NCBI GenBank assembly: GCA_027449865.1
Contig: DAIDKV010000046.1
Coordinates: 1 to 64,000, forward strand
Length of the DNA stretch: 64,000 bases
From: Planctomycetales bacterium
Lineage (GTDB): Bacteria > Planctomycetota > Planctomycetia > Isosphaerales > Isosphaeraceae
Direction: 5' to 3'
In this document: piece by piece, positions 53,497 through 64,000 of the stretch
How positions within the stretch are numbered: position 1 is the first letter of the stretch
Layout of the letters: the number at the start of each line of letters is the position of its first letter
Notes under the pieces: generated by a model
What the model was told of the DNA's origin: nothing
Seen by the model: the letters and a program-made list of their open reading frames with translations, nothing else
Database searches by the model: none
Position numbers and translations under genes: made by a program

Positions 53497-54966
53497 TCAC
53501 GCTGCGCTGGCCGCAGCCTCGGTCAGAGAGTTGACCAGGGTGTCGGCCGTCCCCTCTGCGGCGTGGATGCAGTCAGGGATTCCAACGCCGTCGAAGGCCA
53601 CGCCGGTCAGGTAGAGTCCCGAATGCTTGGCGAGCTTTCGTCGGATGGCCTCAACCCGTTCCAGGTGCCCGAGGGTGTATTGCGGCATCGAACGCGCGTG
53701 ACGTCCGATCTGAATAAAGATCGGGTCACCGGAGGCCCCGATCAACTCGCCCAGTTCGCGACGAACGATCTCCTCGATGGCAGTATCATCGAGATCGAAG
53801 TATTCGGGCTGGGTCGCCCCGCCGATGAAGACACGGACCAGTGCCTTGCCCATGGGCGCTCGGTTCGGGAACTTCACGCTGAGGAACGAGATCGCCAGGA
53901 TCGGCCGCCGCTCGATAATTGGCACGACCACGCCGAAGCCGTCAAGCGGATGCTGGATCTGATCGCGATTGTAGGCGACATTGACGATGATCGACGAAGC
54001 ATAGGGGATCGACCGAAGCTGGAGCGAGAGGCCTGGATCCTGCGTGTCGATCAGCCGGGCGGCGGCGTGCGCCTCGGTGGTGAGAACAACCGCGTCGGCT
54101 TCGATGGGTGGTCCGTCGAGCAACTCGACCAGCCAGGGTGAAACCGGGTCATTCCGGATTACTCGGCGTACGGCCGCGCCCGTTCGGATCGTCCGGGTTG
54201 GCAAGGCCGCTGCGAGGGCCTCGGGAAACGCTCCCATGCCTTGCTCGAGCGCCACGAACAAACCATACCGCGCTCCAGAAGCCTGGCCCGATAGTCGTCC
54301 TCTCCGCCTCGACTCGCGGAGTCCCGCGAGAATTAGACTGCGATGCTCGCGCTCCATTGCCAGGAACTGCGGCAATGTCGCCTTGAGGCTGAGGTCGTTC
54401 GGGTCGGCGGTGTAAATTCCGCCGACGAGAGGTTGGATCAGCCGGTCGAGCGCCTCGCGACCCAGACGACGGCGAACAAAACCCGCGAGGCTCTCCTCAG
54501 CATCATCATCTCGACGTGGCAGAAACAGGTCCATCAACATCCGAAGCTTGCCGCGCCAGGAGATCACCGGCGTCGCCAGCAGCGGACCAAGCCGCTGCGG
54601 GGCCATCAGGACGAAGCCCTCCGGCACTGGTGTCAACCGACCGTCGCGGACCACGAACGAGCGACGTCGCCCCGGGTCCGTCTCGATCAGCTTTTCCTTG
54701 AGACCGAGCCGGCCACAGAGCTCGAGCGCCCAGGGCTTGTTGGTGATGAAGGAGTCCGGCCCGCATTCCACGTTGAATCCGTCGCGATGATCGGTCCAGA
54801 TGACACCGCCGACTCGCTCCCTCGCCTCAAGGAGTGTCAGCTCGACCGGTCGGCGCAACGACTGCATACGCTCGTGAATACGATGCGCCACGGCCAGTCC
54901 CGAGAGACCGCCCCCCACCACCACCACACGTTTCGCCCGCGCCGGGTCAAATTTCACCTCGGCCAA
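53497..54966 (-). CDS. hemY: Protoporphyrinogen/coproporphyrinogen oxidase (HemY/HemG FAD type)
   Basis: FAD enzyme of heme synthesis, about 489 residues. The dinucleotide site is VVVVGGGLSGLAVAHRI near the N-terminus; NVECGPDSFITNKPWALEL and LTGVAFDGVGIPDCIHAAEG are typical of the family. No ATG is available near the fold start. I chose TTG at 54966 with GAAGGGA about 10 bases upstream; GTG 54957 and TTG 55020 are other options. hemE lies upstream on the same strand (223-base gap), so the two heme genes probably belong together. Confidence 0.88.
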   Translation of the reverse strand: MAEVKFDPARAKRVVVVGGGLSGLAVAHRIHERMQSLRRPVELTLLEARERVGGVIWTDHRDGFNVECGPDSFITNKPWALELCGRLGLKEKLIETDPGRRRSFVVRDGRLTPVPEGFVLMAPQRLGPLLATPVISWRGKLRMLMDLFLPRRDDDAEESLAGFVRRRLGREALDRLIQPLVGGIYTADPNDLSLKATLPQFLAMEREHRSLILAGLRESRRRGRLSGQASGARYGLFVALEQGMGAFPEALAAALPTRTIRTGAAVRRVIRNDPVSPWLVELLDGPPIEADAVVLTTEAHAAARLIDTQDPGLSLQLRSIPYASSIIVNVAYNRDQIQHPLDGFGVVVPIIERRPILAISFLSVKFPNRAPMGKALVRVFIGGATQPEYFDLDDTAIEEIVRRELGELIGASGDPIFIQIGRHARSMPQYTLGHLERVEAIRRKLAKHSGLYLTGVAFDGVGIPDCIHAAEGTADTLVNSLTEAAASAA

Positions 54967-55189
54967 TTTCGGTCGTCCCTTCTCGTGATGAGCCCTTCTT
55001 ATCCGACGCCCCGGCCGCAACGCGAGATCTCGATTTCGCTCGCAGCTTAATCGATTTCATCGCAACAGGCGCGGAAAAAGCAATCCAGCATCCGCGTTTG
55101 TCAATCCCGTCGAGTTTGCTTGTTCGCTTGCTCAGTAAGTCGAACTGGATCACTGGCTCCTGAATCTTAACAGATACGCAACCCAGCAG

Positions 55190-56290
55190 TCAGCCGACCC
55201 GCCTCGATCCAGATGCCCTCCTCGAGGATGCATTGTGGACGAAATCCACCAGCGCCCGGACATTCTCGACTGGTGTCGTCGGGAGGATACCGTGTCCAAG
55301 GTTGAAGATATGCCCGGGGCGTCCTTCAGCTTCGTCGAGGATCCTCTGGGCCTGGGCTTCGATCTCGGCCTGGTTCGAGAGCAGAACGACCGGGTCGAGG
55401 TTTCCCTGAACAGCGACGCTCTCGCCGAGCAGTTGTCGAGCCGCGCGAAGGTCGACCCTCCAGTCGAGACCGATGACCGTTCCGCCCGCCTCTCGCTGGA
55501 GTTCCAGGAGCGAGCCGGTGTCGGTGCCAAAATGGATTGTGGAAACCCTGGAGTCGAGCCCCGCGAAGAGACGAGCCATGTGCGGCTGGACGAATCGTCG
55601 GTAGTCGGTCGGACTCAGGCTGCCGACCCAGCTATCGAAGACCTGCAACGCCTGCGCACCCGCAGCGGCCTGAGCGTTCAAATAGGTTGTCGTCGCATCG
55701 ACAAACCGTCTCATTAACGCATCCCAGGCGCCTGGGTCGGCATACATGAACGCCTTGGCCTTCTCGTAATGCCGCGACGAACCTCCCTCGATGGCGTAGC
55801 AGGCCAGGGTGAACGGTGCCCCAGCAAAGCCAATGAGCGGGAGGTCGGGCCTTAGCGCCGAGCGAATCGACCGAACTGCCTGGTAGACAAAATCGAGCGG
55901 TGCGGGGTCCTCAAACGGCCGGATGGTGTCCACGTCTTTCGCTGTCCGGACCGGATTGTGGATGACAGGCCCCTCACCCTTCGCGAATTCGAGTCCGAAG
56001 CCCATAGGCTCAAGGATCAGGAGAATGTCGGCAAACAGGATGGCGGCGTCGACCCCGAGTCGCTCCGCCGCCGTGACCGTCACCTCCGTTGCCAGCTCTG
56101 GCCGCTTGCAGAGGTCGAGGAATGGGACCCTAGAGCGCAACTCCCGGTACTCAGCCATGTACCGGCCAGCTTGCCGCATTAGCCAGATGGGAGTGACATC
56201 AGTCGGCTCGCCTCGACAGGCCTTCAGGAAGGGAGAATCGGCCAGCGGGTCGCGGGCAGGCGACGTGGGGGGGTGGGTCGGACAGTTCAT
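55190..56290 (-). CDS. hemE: Uroporphyrinogen decarboxylase
   Basis: Decarboxylates uroporphyrinogen III to coproporphyrinogen III. About 366 residues from the ATG at 56290 (MNCPTHPPTSPARDP); the frame further upstream is not conserved-looking. Motifs: PIWLMRQAGRYMAEYRELR, the catalytic Asp region in ILFADILLILEPMG, IGFAGAPFTLACYAIEGGSS, DSWVGSLSP and FNLGHGILPTTPVENV. It is divergent from the LOG-family gene. Confidence 0.94.
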   Translation of the reverse strand: MNCPTHPPTSPARDPLADSPFLKACRGEPTDVTPIWLMRQAGRYMAEYRELRSRVPFLDLCKRPELATEVTVTAAERLGVDAAILFADILLILEPMGFGLEFAKGEGPVIHNPVRTAKDVDTIRPFEDPAPLDFVYQAVRSIRSALRPDLPLIGFAGAPFTLACYAIEGGSSRHYEKAKAFMYADPGAWDALMRRFVDATTTYLNAQAAAGAQALQVFDSWVGSLSPTDYRRFVQPHMARLFAGLDSRVSTIHFGTDTGSLLELQREAGGTVIGLDWRVDLRAARQLLGESVAVQGNLDPVVLLSNQAEIEAQAQRILDEAEGRPGHIFNLGHGILPTTPVENVRALVDFVHNASSRRASGSRRVG

Positions 56291-56566
56291 GGACGCCGAA
56301 GGCTTCTCCAGTCTGGGGGCAGAACCGACCGGGCGCTGCGACAATCGCAGCGACGGCGCGAATGTTGCCATTCTACAACGCTTCTCGTAACCCGGGGAGA
56401 CTTCGGCGGCGATTCCGACGGCCAGGACTGGTTGCGGTCGGATTCCTCCCTAGAATGATAGATGGCCCTGGATGATTGGATCGAATCTCTCGCCCGATAA
56501 AAGGCGCTTCCGTGCCAGGTTACAATTGTCGGGCGCCTCTCCCCTTTCGACGGAAGAAGACAGGCG

Positions 56567-58781: not shown

Positions 58782-60329
58782 TCAGACCGGCGGTCGAAGG
58801 CTCTTGTTCGGGTCGTCCTGAAACATGGCGTCGAGCCGGCCGATCTCCTCATTCGCGGCGTGGATCGCCCGACCGGAAAGGATTCCCGAGACATTCCGGA
58901 AGGCCGGTCCGATGTGCATCCCCTTGTCATCGATGGAAAACTCGCGGATCTCCTTCTGGTGCATCGATCCGCGCATTTTGAGGACAGCCAGCCCTCGTCT
59001 CATCTCGCCAAGGATCTCAACGTAGCGGAGCAGGATGATCGAATCGGTGATCGATGAAATGTGCGCCTCGCTGACCGAGGTACCGCCCATGAGTTCGGGA
59101 GTTGTCGCGGTGAACAGCCCGGCCAGCTCTCGGTGCTTGATGAACGAGGTCAGGCTGATGACAAACTCGCGGAAGCTTCGGATCGAGCTGACCCGCTCGA
59201 GCGCAGAGAGACTATCGATGGCGACACGATTTGGGTTAAAGCTTTCGATCTCGCGTTTTATTGTGATGAGGTGGTCCTCCAACGTGGTGGCCTCGGGATA
59301 AACGCAGACGAGTCGGAGTCGGCCGTCAGCCTCCATGGCCTCGAAGTCGACGCCCCAACTCAGAGCGTTGCGAAAGAGCTGATCGTGGCTCTCCTCGAAG
59401 GCAAAAAGGAGCGATCGCTCGCCTGCCTCGGCCCCTCCGCTGAGAAATTCGGTTGTCAGCAGGGTTTTGCCAGTGCCCGTGGCTCCCGAGACAAGTACAA
59501 CCGAGTCGCGAAAGAAGCCGCCGCCGCACATCCCATCGAGTTCCGGGATCCCGGAACTAATCCGAACGTTCGACGATCTCTGACGTAACTCGATCGCCGA
59601 GAGGGGCAGGACGATAATCCCGTGCCCATCGGTGATTGTGAAAGGGAACTGTCCTTTCTGGTGCGAGGTTCCGCGAAACTTGAGGACCTCGACGGTCCGT
59701 CGTCGCTTCTCCTGCTCGAGCGCGTTTCTCAAGACGAGGACGTTGTCGGCAACGAACTCCTCGACTCCGTAGCGACCGACTTCACCCTCATCGGCGCAAC
59801 GCTCGGATGTAAGCAGACCGGTAACGCCCAGATCCTTCAGGGCCGCCGTGAGGCGGAAAATCTCGTGGCGGATCCGAGAGGAGTCGAACTGCGTGAAGAT
59901 CCCTCCGAGTGAGTCGATCGAGACTCGGCTGGCTCCCAGCCGTCGGATGGCATGCTCGATTCGGACAATGAGTGCGCCAAGGTCGAAATCGCCGGAGACA
60001 AGCGTTGGCTCTCCGGGCTGGATGGAGGCGTCGACGAACGCCCACTTGCCGGCCGCCTCCCATCGGGCCACATCCCAGCCAAAGCCCGCCAGATTGCGCC
60101 GGATGTCGGCTGACCGCTCCTCGAACGTGACGAATACACCTGGTTCGGCGAACTGATCGATCCCCGAAGCGAGAAACTGCGCTGCGAATACGGTCTTGGC
60201 ACTACCGGCGGTTCCCGAGATGAGTGTTGTCCGGCCTCTCGGAAGTCCGCCATACGTGATCAGGTCGAAGCCCTCGATTCCGGTTAGGAGTTTCTCGACG
60301 CCGGCCGCGCCCGCCTCGACTGCACCCAT
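58782..60329 (-). CDS. kaiC: KaiC-family double-domain clock-type ATPase
   Basis: 515 residues, the length of cyanobacterial KaiC (519). The ATG at 60329 has GGGAGA 7 bases upstream. CI has Walker A GTAGSAKT (39-46) and catalytic Glu-Glu in FVTFEERSADIRRN (70-71); CII has Walker A VSGATGTGKTLL (about 268) and FAFEESHDQLFRN. The CII phosphosite region reads AHISSITDSI: Ser425-Ser426 replace the usual Ser431-Thr432 pair. The tail DDPNKSLRPPV is shorter or different from the KaiA-binding tail of cyanobacteria. Downstream of the receiver/KaiA-like gene with a 161-base gap. Confidence 0.93.
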   Translation of the reverse strand: MGAVEAGAAGVEKLLTGIEGFDLITYGGLPRGRTTLISGTAGSAKTVFAAQFLASGIDQFAEPGVFVTFEERSADIRRNLAGFGWDVARWEAAGKWAFVDASIQPGEPTLVSGDFDLGALIVRIEHAIRRLGASRVSIDSLGGIFTQFDSSRIRHEIFRLTAALKDLGVTGLLTSERCADEGEVGRYGVEEFVADNVLVLRNALEQEKRRRTVEVLKFRGTSHQKGQFPFTITDGHGIIVLPLSAIELRQRSSNVRISSGIPELDGMCGGGFFRDSVVLVSGATGTGKTLLTTEFLSGGAEAGERSLLFAFEESHDQLFRNALSWGVDFEAMEADGRLRLVCVYPEATTLEDHLITIKREIESFNPNRVAIDSLSALERVSSIRSFREFVISLTSFIKHRELAGLFTATTPELMGGTSVSEAHISSITDSIILLRYVEILGEMRRGLAVLKMRGSMHQKEIREFSIDDKGMHIGPAFRNVSGILSGRAIHAANEEIGRLDAMFQDDPNKSLRPPV

Positions 60330-60490: not shown

Positions 60491-61366
60491 CTAGCCCAGG
60501 CGAGAGGAATCGGTTGGATGGTCGCGATAGTAGGAAACGAGATGCCCCATCATTTCCAGGACCAGAAGCCGTCCCTCGTCGAGATAAGCCCGTGCCCGGG
60601 CCGCGGCCACCCCGACCGATCGCGATTTCAGGACGTCGCCATACAGCTCGACCACGTCGCGTGGACCGGCTCCCAGGGATCCGAGCCGATCACCGACCTT
60701 CCTCAACTCGGTACTGATATCGTGCTCGATCCGGTAGTTTTGCTGCTGGATGGCCATATCCAGAAGCCGCTCGCATCGGGCGGCCAGCCCCGAGAATTCC
60801 TCGGGATGATTTTCCCGAAGCGATCGGCTACGCGCTCCCGGATCGTCTGATGTGGGCGCAGCGGACATCCGCCGCCCGAGTTCCTGAAGCTCGCGCTCGA
60901 GTTGTTCGATTTTCTCAGCGCCCGCTCGCGCGGCGTCTTCGGCCCGTCGCATCCGGAGTAGGCCCCGGATGCTGGCCACGAGCACCAGCGGCTCCACCGG
61001 CTGGATCAAGTATCCATCGGCACCGCTGATGAGCCCGAGCGAGCGATCTTCATCTCGCACGTAGCGTGCCGAGATGTGGAGCACCGGGATCGAGGCCGTG
61101 GTGGGATCCGCCTTGATCCGTCGGCAGACCTCGAAGCCATTCACATCGGGGAGGTCTACGTCGAGGACAACCAGGTCGTGCCGCCTCTGTGCCACCATCC
61201 GGAGCGCAGCGCTCCCGTCGATGGCCTCCTCGACCCGGAAGCCTTCCCTGGAGAGCATTCGGCTCACCGCGTAGCGATTGGCATCGTCATCGTTGACGTT
61301 GAGGATCATCGGCGAATCCTCAGCCCCGGTTGAAGAGCTAGGATTGGCGGCTCGGTTGGGATTCAT
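60491..61366 (-). CDS. Receiver protein with KaiA/RsbU_N-like C-terminal domain
   Basis: 291 residues. Residues 20-140 are a receiver: ILNVNDDDANRYAVSRML, phospho-Asp69 in LVVLDVDLPDVNG, and Gln122 (YLIQPVEP) in place of the conserved Lys. After a coiled segment, residues 188-285 match the helical KaiA C-terminal/RsbU N-terminal fold by pattern: FSGLAARCERLLDMAIQQQN, AGPRDVVELYGDVLKSRS and YLDEGRLLVLEMMGHLVSYY. In cyanobacteria a pseudo-receiver plus this domain makes KaiA, which stimulates KaiC. The start overlaps the kinase stop by 4 bases (ATGA). The KaiA likeness is from pattern reading and needs structural comparison. Confidence 0.85.
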   Translation of the reverse strand: MNPNRAANPSSSTGAEDSPMILNVNDDDANRYAVSRMLSREGFRVEEAIDGSAALRMVAQRRHDLVVLDVDLPDVNGFEVCRRIKADPTTASIPVLHISARYVRDEDRSLGLISGADGYLIQPVEPLVLVASIRGLLRMRRAEDAARAGAEKIEQLERELQELGRRMSAAPTSDDPGARSRSLRENHPEEFSGLAARCERLLDMAIQQQNYRIEHDISTELRKVGDRLGSLGAGPRDVVELYGDVLKSRSVGVAAARARAYLDEGRLLVLEMMGHLVSYYRDHPTDSSRLG

Positions 61367-62661
61367 GTACCTGCCCCCGCGGCAATCCCCCGAATTTCGA
61401 CCACCATCGGGCCAGTGTAAGCGATCGGCAAGCGAAGCCGGAATGTGGAGCCGATCCCAGGACGACTTTCGAGAGCGACGTCGCCGCCGAGTAACCGCGC
61501 AAGCTGTCGTGAAATCGGGAGACCCAGCCCGGTTCCCTTCAGCCGGACCTGGAGCGGGCTTTCGACCTGGGCAAACTCCTCAAAGATCCGCGATTGGTCC
61601 TCAAGGGCGATACCGATCCCGGTGTCGGCGACGGCGAACTGGATAGTGGCCTCGTCCACCATACCGGCCGAGATGCGAACCTCGCCTCGCTCGGTGAATT
61701 TCAGGGCGTTGGAAAGGAAGTTCCGAAGGATTTGCGCCACTTTTCCCTGGTCTGTTCGAAGGAGCGGGATGTCGTCGGGCAGCTCGAAGACCAGGTCGAC
61801 CGCGTCCGAAGATCTCAGGGGGCGCATCATCCCCCGCAGGGCGGCAAACAGATCATGTACGCTGAAGTTCTCGGGGCGTATGGTCGCCTTCCCGGCCTCG
61901 ATCCGCGCCAGGTCGAGAAGGTCATCGACCAGTTCGGAGAGCCCCTGGGCGGACTGTCGGATGTAACGAACCTCGGTCCGCTGGTCGGGGCCGAGCCGAT
62001 GTTCCCCTTCCTCGTCGAGCAAAAGCCCGGAGAGCGAGAGGATGGCGTTGATCGGCGTTCGGAACTCGTGGCTCATGTTCGAGAGAAATCGAGATTTCAA
62101 CTCACCGGCGCGGCGGAGAGCAGTGGCCTTATCCTCCAGCTCGGCGTAGAGGGCGAGAATGCCGCGATTGGTTTCGGCCAGCTCGGCCTCGGCTCGGCGG
62201 CGGGCCTGTATATCACGGACAAGCTGACGCTGGCTCTCGGCCAACTCGCGATTGAGGGCCAGGACGGACCCACGCAGAGCTTCCGACCCCTCGATGTCGT
62301 GCTCGGCGACGACAAAGAGTCCGCCTCCACATTGATAAGCAGCCCCACCCAGCGAGACGGGTGTGGTGCCGGGACGGCCAAGATTCAGAATGCCGCGGTA
62401 GAGAGGGAGTCCGTTGTACTCGTCTCCTGCTCTGCGGTCTATCAGCTCGGAGAAGGTTGGCTGGATGAACGAACCGGCGGCGTTCCACCTCGATTGGTCT
62501 GGCCATAGCTCGGTACCGATGGCGATGCGGAGAAATCCCCGGTTGGCATCAGCGACCGTGCCATCGGCCTCGAGACAGGCCATGGCCGTCGCCCTCGAAT
62601 CACGGAGAAAGTCGGGGACGCGAGCCCATTTGAGATCCAGCCGATCAGGTGTGGGCTTCAC
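61363..62661 (-). CDS. Soluble histidine kinase with PAS-like sensor
   Basis: GTG start at 62661 with GGGAGG upstream, overlapping the cobalamin-protein gene by 17 bases; an ATG at 62724 is less likely. About 432 residues: a PAS-like domain (MACLEADGTVADANRGFLRI, AAYQCGGGLFVVAEHDIEG), a coiled coil with ALNRELAESQRQLVRDIQ, HisKA with NMSHEFRTPINAILS and HATPase_c with NFLSNALKFTERG, DTGIGIALEDQ and KGTGLGLPISR. No transmembrane helix. Its likely partner is the receiver in the next overlapping gene. Confidence 0.92.
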   Translation of the reverse strand: MKPTPDRLDLKWARVPDFLRDSRATAMACLEADGTVADANRGFLRIAIGTELWPDQSRWNAAGSFIQPTFSELIDRRAGDEYNGLPLYRGILNLGRPGTTPVSLGGAAYQCGGGLFVVAEHDIEGSEALRGSVLALNRELAESQRQLVRDIQARRRAEAELAETNRGILALYAELEDKATALRRAGELKSRFLSNMSHEFRTPINAILSLSGLLLDEEGEHRLGPDQRTEVRYIRQSAQGLSELVDDLLDLARIEAGKATIRPENFSVHDLFAALRGMMRPLRSSDAVDLVFELPDDIPLLRTDQGKVAQILRNFLSNALKFTERGEVRISAGMVDEATIQFAVADTGIGIALEDQSRIFEEFAQVESPLQVRLKGTGLGLPISRQLARLLGGDVALESRPGIGSTFRLRLPIAYTGPMVVEIRGIAAGAGT

Positions 62662-63706
62662 GGAGGGCCTCCCTCGCGTTGGCTCCCCAGAGATCGGCGT
62701 CAAGGTCTCGCCAGAGGCTGTCAAGCTGGTTCAGCGCCAGTCCTCCGATGAGGACCGACGGGCGTCCCGCGCCGCCGTCGCTCCGGATGCTTTGGATCAC
62801 CTCGCGACCCGTGCTCACCTGCGAGGGCATCGAGATCGATAGCCCGACCAGGTCGGGACGAAATCGGTCGATCTGCTCAAGCAGCGACCGGGTTGGCGTG
62901 TCGGCTCCAAGGAACTGCACTTCCCAACCCTTGATCTCAAAGGCGTCGGAGACCATACGTAGACCCAGATCGTGGTGATTCCCCTCAACACAGGAGAAAA
63001 GGGCCTTGCGGCGGACCGGAGGAGCAAACTCGGCGGAGGCAAATGCCTGGGCCATCAGGCTCTCGCTGATCGCCGTCGCCAGGTGCTCCTGCGCGATCGA
63101 AACCTTGCTGACCTGCCAGAGCCGGCCGATTTCGTACATCGCCGGCTGGATCAGCCCGACGCCGACGTCGACCAGTTCGGTCCCCTGTTCGATCGGCTCG
63201 AAGATCATTCGACGTGCGGTCCCTCGATCGCCCGCAATCAGTGCGGCGCAGAGGGTCGGCGCGGCGGGGTCGCTCGCGGTCAGATGTCGATAAAAGGAGG
63301 GCTGATACTCGCCGGGCTCCTCCAGCGCGACCATTCCAGTCCAGAGGACGGCGTCGACCAGCGCATAGTCTTGCGGGGCCAGCCGGCTCGCCCAGGCCCT
63401 GGCCAGAAGCTCAAACGACTCGACCAGATGCGAGGCGGGGATTCCCTTGCCTTCCAGAACCGAGGCCAGCCACCGGGCATACTCCCGGAAGGGATCGGAA
63501 TAACCAGTCTCAATACAGGCGCGGACATATTCCAGATGGTAGGTCAGGTCTTCTCGGCAGTAATCGCGGCCCCAGGCTCCATACTGAGATTCCCATTCCG
63601 GATGCCTTTGGTAGAGAGTCTCCACGACCTCGTCAACCACACCGGCGGCCATCACTACCAACTGCTCTCGGCCCACAGGCGAGAGGGAAACGGGAAGCTT
63701 GGGCAT
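62645..63706 (-). CDS. Cobalamin-binding, CarH/LitR-like sensor without DNA-binding domain
   Basis: 353 residues; GAGGAGGG lies 5 bases before the ATG. Residues 1-140 are a helical domain not seen in CarH. Residues 145-220 match the B12-capping helical domain: W197 and E207-H208 (LWQVSKVSIAQEHLAT) form the W-x9-EH signature of adenosylcobalamin photoreceptors. Residues 233-353 are the Rossmann B12 domain: H245-D-L-G248 (the family's ExHxxG; here Asn occupies the E/D position), VGLSISMP and LIGGLALN. In this family light cleaves the Co-C bond and changes oligomeric state. No MerR HTH is present, so its output must be the adjacent kinase. Confidence 0.88.
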   Translation of the reverse strand: MPKLPVSLSPVGREQLVVMAAGVVDEVVETLYQRHPEWESQYGAWGRDYCREDLTYHLEYVRACIETGYSDPFREYARWLASVLEGKGIPASHLVESFELLARAWASRLAPQDYALVDAVLWTGMVALEEPGEYQPSFYRHLTASDPAAPTLCAALIAGDRGTARRMIFEPIEQGTELVDVGVGLIQPAMYEIGRLWQVSKVSIAQEHLATAISESLMAQAFASAEFAPPVRRKALFSCVEGNHHDLGLRMVSDAFEIKGWEVQFLGADTPTRSLLEQIDRFRPDLVGLSISMPSQVSTGREVIQSIRSDGGAGRPSVLIGGLALNQLDSLWRDLDADLWGANAREALREAHT

Positions 63707-63732: not shown

Positions 63733-64000
63733 TCAGTCGGCCACATGCTCGAGCACGCGGATCGAGACACTCCCGGGGACGACCTTCAGCCCCTTCGGCA
63801 TCCCTCGGTGAGATTCCTTGTAATCATGGCTTCGATGCCAGAGACGAAAGCTCTCTTCATCGGTCCAGTAGGTAAAGAGCCAGAACTCGTCCGGCTGGTC
63901 TCGCGGGCTGAGTACTTCGAGACGGAGGAATCCGGGCGCATCCTCGACCAGGTGAGGCCGGGCGCGGAATGCGTCTCGAGTCGGATTCGACATCTCACCC
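63733..64000 (-). CDS. ABM-domain (antibiotic biosynthesis monooxygenase/heme-degradation type) protein, partial
   Basis: The visible 86 residues show an ABM ferredoxin-like fold: APGFLRLEVLSPRDQPDEFW, LFTYWTDEESFRLWHRS and the end SVSIRVLEHVAD. Its natural start is probably beyond the right edge: the Met at 63993 (MSNPTRDAFRARPH) falls within what is normally the first helix, and no spaced ribosome-binding site precedes it. The stop is 26 bases before the cobalamin-sensor gene, so it may belong to the same operon. Family members include heme-degrading monooxygenases and small signalling enzymes. Confidence 0.8.
   Translation of the reverse strand, partial: GEMSNPTRDAFRARPHLVEDAPGFLRLEVLSPRDQPDEFWLFTYWTDEESFRLWHRSHDYKESHRGMPKGLKVVPGSVSIRVLEHVAD

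Follow-up and report, generated by a model that had tools for sequence, protein, structure and literature searches.

A predicted KaiA3-family protein in Planctomycetota, encoded beside a KaiC3-type gene and overlapping a histidine kinase gene

P0001 is a gene on the minus strand of a 64,000-nucleotide stretch of a Planctomycetales genome (assembly GCA_027449865.1, contig DAIDKV010000046.1; hereafter the window). Its product joins a receiver to a KaiA-type helical domain and is, judged by homology, a KaiA3-family protein in Planctomycetota. In this study, we observed homology to cyanobacterial KaiA3, a predicted KaiA-like fold, linkage to kaiC, co-occurrence with KaiC3, co-loss with a KaiC tail motif, and an overlap with a histidine kinase gene. 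We consider it likely that P0001 acts as a planctomycete KaiA3, in which a kinase-set receiver tunes a domain that docks on KaiC at its tail and stimulates it. The gene and its parts are as follows.

60491..61366, minus strand: kaiA3-type gene P0001 (receiver, coil and KaiA-C domain; 291 aa, ATG start)
60947..61309, minus strand: receiver domain of P0001, aa 20-140 (Pfam Response_reg)
61160..61162, minus strand: codon of Asp69, the expected phospho-acceptor of P0001
61001..61003, minus strand: codon of Gln122, which replaces the conserved receiver Lys in P0001
60863..60946, minus strand: coil linker of P0001, aa 141-168 (a helix spans 126-168 in the full-length model, which is of low confidence)
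60512..60829, minus strand: KaiA-C-type four-helix domain of P0001, aa 180-285 (assigned by KaiA3 homology and a model)

Orthologues of P0001 from two sister species gave a pairwise dN of ~0.07-0.08 against a dS of ~0.38. Since dN is far below dS, P0001 is under purifying selection, and a chance ORF at 60491-61366 was ruled out.

Single-sequence scans with the curated Pfam and NCBIfam models left the C-terminal domain of P0001 unnamed. Its relatives occur both within the genus and in further planctomycete families. For comparison, 17 planctomycete domains were aligned with four proteins from cyanobacteria, in each of which a receiver is joined to such a domain and whose genes stand directly upstream of kaiB. 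The P0001 domain was 38-44% identical to these four proteins over ~105 aa (88-96 bits), and profile-profile alignment of the planctomycete and cyanobacterial groups by hhalign gave a probability of 99.95. Two of the four, L190 and L191, are 299 aa long, carry Asp65 and are encoded upstream of kaiB, with a KaiC3-type gene elsewhere. KaiA3 (Sll0485) was published with 299 aa, Asp65, a position upstream of kaiB and kaiC3 elsewhere (PMC11372060), and by fit to these features L190 and L191 appear to be KaiA3. Homology to cyanobacterial KaiA3 settles the family membership of P0001 at the sequence level. Because its receiver is not of the NarL type and the N-terminal modules vary among planctomycetes, P0001 is filed as a putative KaiA3 variant, defined by its C-terminal domain rather than as a strict orthologue along the whole length.

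Similarity to canonical KaiA was examined with several profiles. PF07688, the canonical KaiA model, had no significant match in P0001 and none over its curated cut-off across 59 related genomes, which indicates that the curated model misses the family of P0001. The first PDB profile search placed KaiA at ranks 2, 3 and 6 with E values of 0.7-1, and E values of 0.5-0.7 were also obtained for KaiA over the PDB profile searches. Alignment by hhalign against 29 canonical KaiA sequences gave an E of 0.0034 over 91 columns (control alignments reached 0.019 with reversed sequences and no better than 0.08 with shuffled ones), and we regard the sequence similarity of the P0001 domain to canonical KaiA as only suggestive. 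RsbU_N (PF08673) and KaiA were the only Pfam families to match more than two of the 21 family members; they tied at four members each, the best E for RsbU_N being 0.0037, and the RsbU_N profile gave no match to the window P0001 domain itself. This tie is expected because the RsbU_N and KaiA C-terminal domains share a fold (PMC11372060). Since Pfam alone ties the two, the genomic link and the direct KaiA3 homology decide.

The fold of the C-terminal domain was predicted with AlphaFold2. A model of P0001 residues 180-285, built with six sequences, had four long helices at a mean pLDDT of 87.6, in agreement with the helical C-terminal domain of the original prediction. The full-length model, with a long helix at 126-168, was too poor (mean pLDDT 59), and no fold claim rests on it. 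The best fold matches of the 180-285 model were 1q6a, 5jwr and 1v2z. As had been anticipated, KaiA C-terminal structures came first both in Foldseek (1q6a, probability 1.00, TM 0.63) and in VIA-align 2 (1v2z, Z 10.9, 93 residues, 2.3 A). The closest unrelated folds were smURFP/phycobiliprotein- and globin-like, at Z ~10.3 and below, the nearest lying within 1 Z of KaiA. Because the domain is helical and unrelated folds stand close behind, Z 10.9 alone is insufficient, and KaiA3 sequence homology carries the claim. The modelled fold supports the KaiA assignment and is not proof by itself. Neither HPt nor RsbU_N appeared among the fold matches listed, which by itself rules out neither. An HPt identity was set aside on the first rank of KaiA C-terminal structures in both searches, and an RsbU-regulator identity on the KaiA3 homology, the link to KaiC and the lack of a PP2C domain.

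The position of the gene was compared among related genomes. Twelve related planctomycete genomes have the domain gene immediately ahead of kaiB, which kaiC follows (G053, G012, G029, G215, G353, G391, G167, G262, G341, G365, G250 and G278). In the five genomes of the window genus, the kaiA3-type gene is directly upstream of kaiC, with kaiB absent between them. KaiC3-type KaiC was intact in 20 of 397 genomes of the class, and G353 adds one in two frames, giving 21. All 17 genomes that carry the KaiA3-type domain fall within these 21 among the 397 sampled (simple hypergeometric p ~2e-26, with no correction for relatedness). The proposal of a KaiA equivalent beside kaiC was borne out by the KaiA3 homology, the KaiC3-type neighbour and this co-occurrence. 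It had been set against a tie to RsbU with no KaiC link, and such a link was found (KaiC3 genomes only; 12 genomes upstream of kaiB-kaiC). The G353 kaiC (L127:4082-5604, minus strand) is split over two frames that meet near residue 326, by a frameshift or an assembly error, and kaiA3 and kaiB are intact beside it.

The same type of domain, joined to a degenerate receiver, also occurs in another family, which is widespread in planctomycetes and has no Kai genes nearby. Its members have ~340 aa, with a KaiA/RsbU_N-type domain after the degenerate receiver (L040:5221-6276, L041:3928-4908, L042:5107-6276, L128 and many others), and are perhaps cousins of planctomycete KaiA3. Since this family shares the domain type, fold alone is no proof of action on KaiC; the domain type is not Kai-specific, though the KaiA3 branch is.

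The neighbouring kaiC gene was classified, and its features are given below.

58782..60329, minus strand: kaiC P0002, KaiC3 type, 515 aa (NF006799, identity and tree)
59052..59057, minus strand: codons of Ser425-Ser426, equivalents of the KaiC phosphosites Ser431/Thr432 (alignment with PDB KaiC)
58821..58838, minus strand: KaiC tail motif RLDAMF, aa 498-503, proposed KaiA3 docking site (motif presence tracks KaiA3)

P0002 has both domains of KaiC in full (NF006799, E=5e-213). Its identity was 64-66% with KaiC3-type proteins from four cyanobacteria and 54-58% with the KaiC1-type proteins found, and in the tree it grouped with KaiC3 and apart from KaiC1 (support 100/99). The KaiC tail is the docking site for KaiA. 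In KaiC of this type, a motif R[LIVM]xx[LM]F sits past the conserved end of CII, and it was kept wherever KaiC3 occurs with KaiA3 and its tail has been sequenced (16 planctomycete and 4 cyanobacterial proteins); the G003 tail, cut by the contig end, was left out of the count. Among the four KaiC3 genomes without KaiA3, the motif was missing in three (G017, G019 and G032), where KaiB and KaiC are present and no KaiA3 was detected. The exception, G007, keeps the motif with no KaiA3 seen; its kaiB lies within ~75 bases of the contig end, so that an upstream gene there would go unseen. This co-loss is what would be expected if the KaiC tail is the KaiA3 docking site, as we propose, and the motif offers a testable KaiC tail element for KaiA3 docking.

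There is no kaiB at the window kaiA3-kaiC locus. Three genes each for KaiB and KaiC occur in the genome of the window. In a tree, the KaiB encoded on contig C229 grouped with the KaiBs of KaiC3-type operons (support 96/92), and the PAS-type kinase encoded after it is 67% identical to the kinase encoded after kaiC in G017. On the simplest reading, kaiB, kaiC and a kinase gene formed one ancestral operon that was later split, and kaiC now stands with kaiA3. The other two kaiB/kaiC pairs of this genome (G000) are on contigs C215 and C16. The C215 pair (L057) groups with KaiC2, and in the C16 pair (L058) KaiC is 51% identical to P0002 and KaiB is very divergent.

We infer from these data that the four-helix domain of P0001 would bind the C-terminal tail (RLDAMF) of the neighbouring KaiC3-type KaiC and, once bound, stimulate KaiC autophosphorylation, as KaiA does. 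KaiB from contig C229, encoded beside the PAS kinase, would oppose KaiA3 and close the cycle, any daily rhythm being a presumed outcome. The receiver would serve as the input, with phosphotransfer to Asp69 from the upstream, translationally coupled kinase P0003 tuning the KaiA activity. The kinase gene lies as follows.

61363..62724, minus strand: histidine kinase gene P0003, HisKA and HATPase_c (true start uncertain)
61363..61366, minus strand: ATGA, 4 nt shared by the kinase stop and the kaiA3 start (5/5 congeneric genomes)

The receiver of P0001 was examined for its capacity to be phosphorylated. The Pfam scan placed Response_reg over residues 21-133 (E=1.9e-20), and in the profile scan the receiver was best scored by PleD/CseB/PhoB-type rather than NarL-type models. 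The acid pair Asp26/Asp27, Asp69 (VVLDVDL) and Ser99 are kept, and Gln122 (YLIQPVE) stands at the usual place of the receiver Lys, just as the original prediction described. Because the conserved Lys is absent, phospho-switching may be altered or lost, and this raises real doubt about classical receiver switching in P0001. It is unlikely, in our estimate, that the domain is a non-phosphorylated pseudo-receiver, with the KaiA-C domain stimulating KaiC constitutively and the kinase acting elsewhere. Canonical KaiA has a pseudo-receiver, and by direct reading the Lys is missing at Tyr+3 of the GADGY motif in all four cyanobacterial KaiA3 receivers, both of which fit that reading together with Gln122. 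However, the receiver retains Asp69, Ser99 and its acid pair, the 4-nt overlap with the kinase is conserved, and the same QP in place of Lys is seen in Myxococcus, in a receiver that is fused to a kinase (L017). Since the Lys is lost in the cyanobacterial KaiA3 receivers and in L017 as well, Gln122 does not mean decay, and it seems rather to characterise a subfamily of receivers. Phosphorylation control of P0001 is the reading we favour, by inference, for a receiver that keeps the Asp and lacks the Lys.

The N-terminal modules on the KaiA3-type domain differ among planctomycetes. They were assigned by reading the sequences, not by profile search.

Window genus: receiver
G053: PAS-like
G012, G029, G215: degenerate receiver and PAS-like
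G353: receiver, GAF-like and PAS-like
G167: degenerate receiver
G341, G365, G250, G278: KaiA3-type domain without a sensor

The single-domain proteins are 157-173 aa long (L144 and L146 in G250 and G278; L138 and L139 in G341 and G365) and parallel the short KaiA of some cyanobacteria. A similar N-terminal range is known for canonical KaiA, which has a pseudo-receiver, other domains, or none (PMC8113500). KaiA in Planctomycetota is a modular adaptor, with varied sensors or none on one conserved, KaiC-linked domain. This pattern bears on whether the receiver is an output, with the KaiA-C domain tethering it to KaiC, the state of KaiC governing its phosphorylation by the overlapping kinase, and the phospho-receiver being the clock output. 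Kinase, receiver protein and KaiC do share one operon, and kinases also stand behind kaiC in other operons. However, the Pfam scan found no DNA-binding or enzymatic output domain in P0001, PP2C phosphatase included, and the exchange of the receiver for PAS, pseudo-receiver plus PAS or nothing in related kaiA3 genes fits sensory input better, so that we hold an output role to be quite unlikely. It is very improbable that the domain is a partner-switching module of the RsbU_N kind that has nothing to do with KaiC and is encoded beside it by chance. The Pfam tie and the Kai-less paralogues speak for this reading; against it stand the KaiA3 homology, the exclusive co-occurrence with KaiC3, the succession of kaiA, kaiB and kaiC in 12 genomes, the joint loss with the KaiC tail motif and the lack of a PP2C domain.

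The fusion of a receiver with a KaiA-type domain has a precedent. KaiA3 (Sll0485) has been known since 2024 from Synechocystis sp. PCC 6803 and other cyanobacteria (Kobler et al. 2024, PMC11372060), with relatives in five genera outside that phylum, Roseiflexus, Chloroflexus, Chloroherpeton, Rhodospirillum and Bradyrhizobium (PMC11372060). P0001 shares with it a receiver with the phospho-Asp, a linker, a KaiA-like C-terminal domain and a KaiC3-type partner, and differs in its phylum, its PleD/PhoB-like rather than NarL receiver, the off-locus kaiB and the kinase overlap; other planctomycetes carry PAS, a pseudo-receiver or no N-terminal domain. Adjacency to kaiB3, a synteny trait in the naming of KaiA3, is lacking at the window locus and present in 12 planctomycete genomes. 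Canonical KaiA (PF07688) has in common with P0001 the four-helix C-terminal fold, a receiver-like N-terminal domain and a place next to kaiC, whereas P0001 has no significant PF07688 match, a live-looking receiver and KaiC3 rather than KaiC1 as its partner. With the RsbU N-terminal domain (PF08673) it shares the four-helix superfamily, but P0001 has no phosphatase domain and is linked to KaiC, not to RsbT/sigma-B.

Outside cyanobacteria, the hourglass system of R. sphaeroides, made up of kaiBC and a kinase (PMC10076222), likewise pairs KaiC with a histidine kinase of the same operon, as noted in PMC5520375. It lacks KaiA, and its KaiC has a long coiled-coil tail, whereas the window has KaiA3 and a short KaiC tail. 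Dvornyk and Mei (2021, PMC8113500) claimed a KaiA in another planctomycete record, 'Planctomycetaceae bacterium TMED241', as part of a complete kaiABC operon of cyanobacterial type, and by its published description it is not of the KaiA3 type. We found no report in the open-access literature of KaiA3 in Planctomycetota or of KaiA3 with an operonic kinase. New here are the phylum, the swapping of sensor domains on one KaiA domain, and kaiB at another locus. The locus bears on the view of KaiA as an essentially cyanobacterial invention.

Upstream of the kinase lies a further gene of the minus strand.

62645..63706, minus strand: B12-binding protein P0004 (photoreceptor signature and an N-terminal phycobilisome/globin-like region)

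The light-responsive B12 signature consists of GxxW, EH, GxxH and GxxxP (PMC11796333), and P0004 has all four elements (GRLW194, EH207, GNHH242 and GADTP267). Its top PDB matches were photocobilins (8j2w, whole-protein E 7e-30, mostly from the B12 half). The N-terminal half gave weak matches, of just 12 bits to globin-like proteins and E 0.003 to Phycobilisome, and the domain order is reversed relative to photocobilin. P0004 is a photocobilin-like protein and, by signature, a candidate B12 photoreceptor. The B12 gene is upstream of the kinase in three of five congeners (G000, G003 and, in part, G001); G002 and G004 keep the kinase and kaiA3, with the B12 gene not adjoining the kinase. This upstream protein with a B12-photoreceptor signature and the 4-nt kinase/kaiA3 overlap in 5/5 species are likewise new.

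In this species, P0003 would probably be informed by the B12 photoreceptor-like protein. A complete light-to-clock line, from a B12 (perhaps B12-bilin) photoreceptor through the histidine kinase and the KaiA3 receiver to KaiC3, is a tentative possibility; it would, if true, make P0001 the first known KaiA under the control of a cognate two-component kinase. The locus gives a concrete candidate pair of kinase and KaiA3, joined by the conserved 4-nt overlap, and a possible light sensor, and the operon suggests how a KaiA3-KaiC timer could be set. Just upstream of P0004, at the window end (63733-63999, minus strand), is a gene for a small ABM-domain protein (antibiotic biosynthesis monooxygenase family). 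Two genes at 53497-56371 (minus strand) resemble, by reading only, those for protoporphyrinogen oxidase and uroporphyrinogen decarboxylase, a putative tetrapyrrole-synthesis pair a few kb from the Kai operon.
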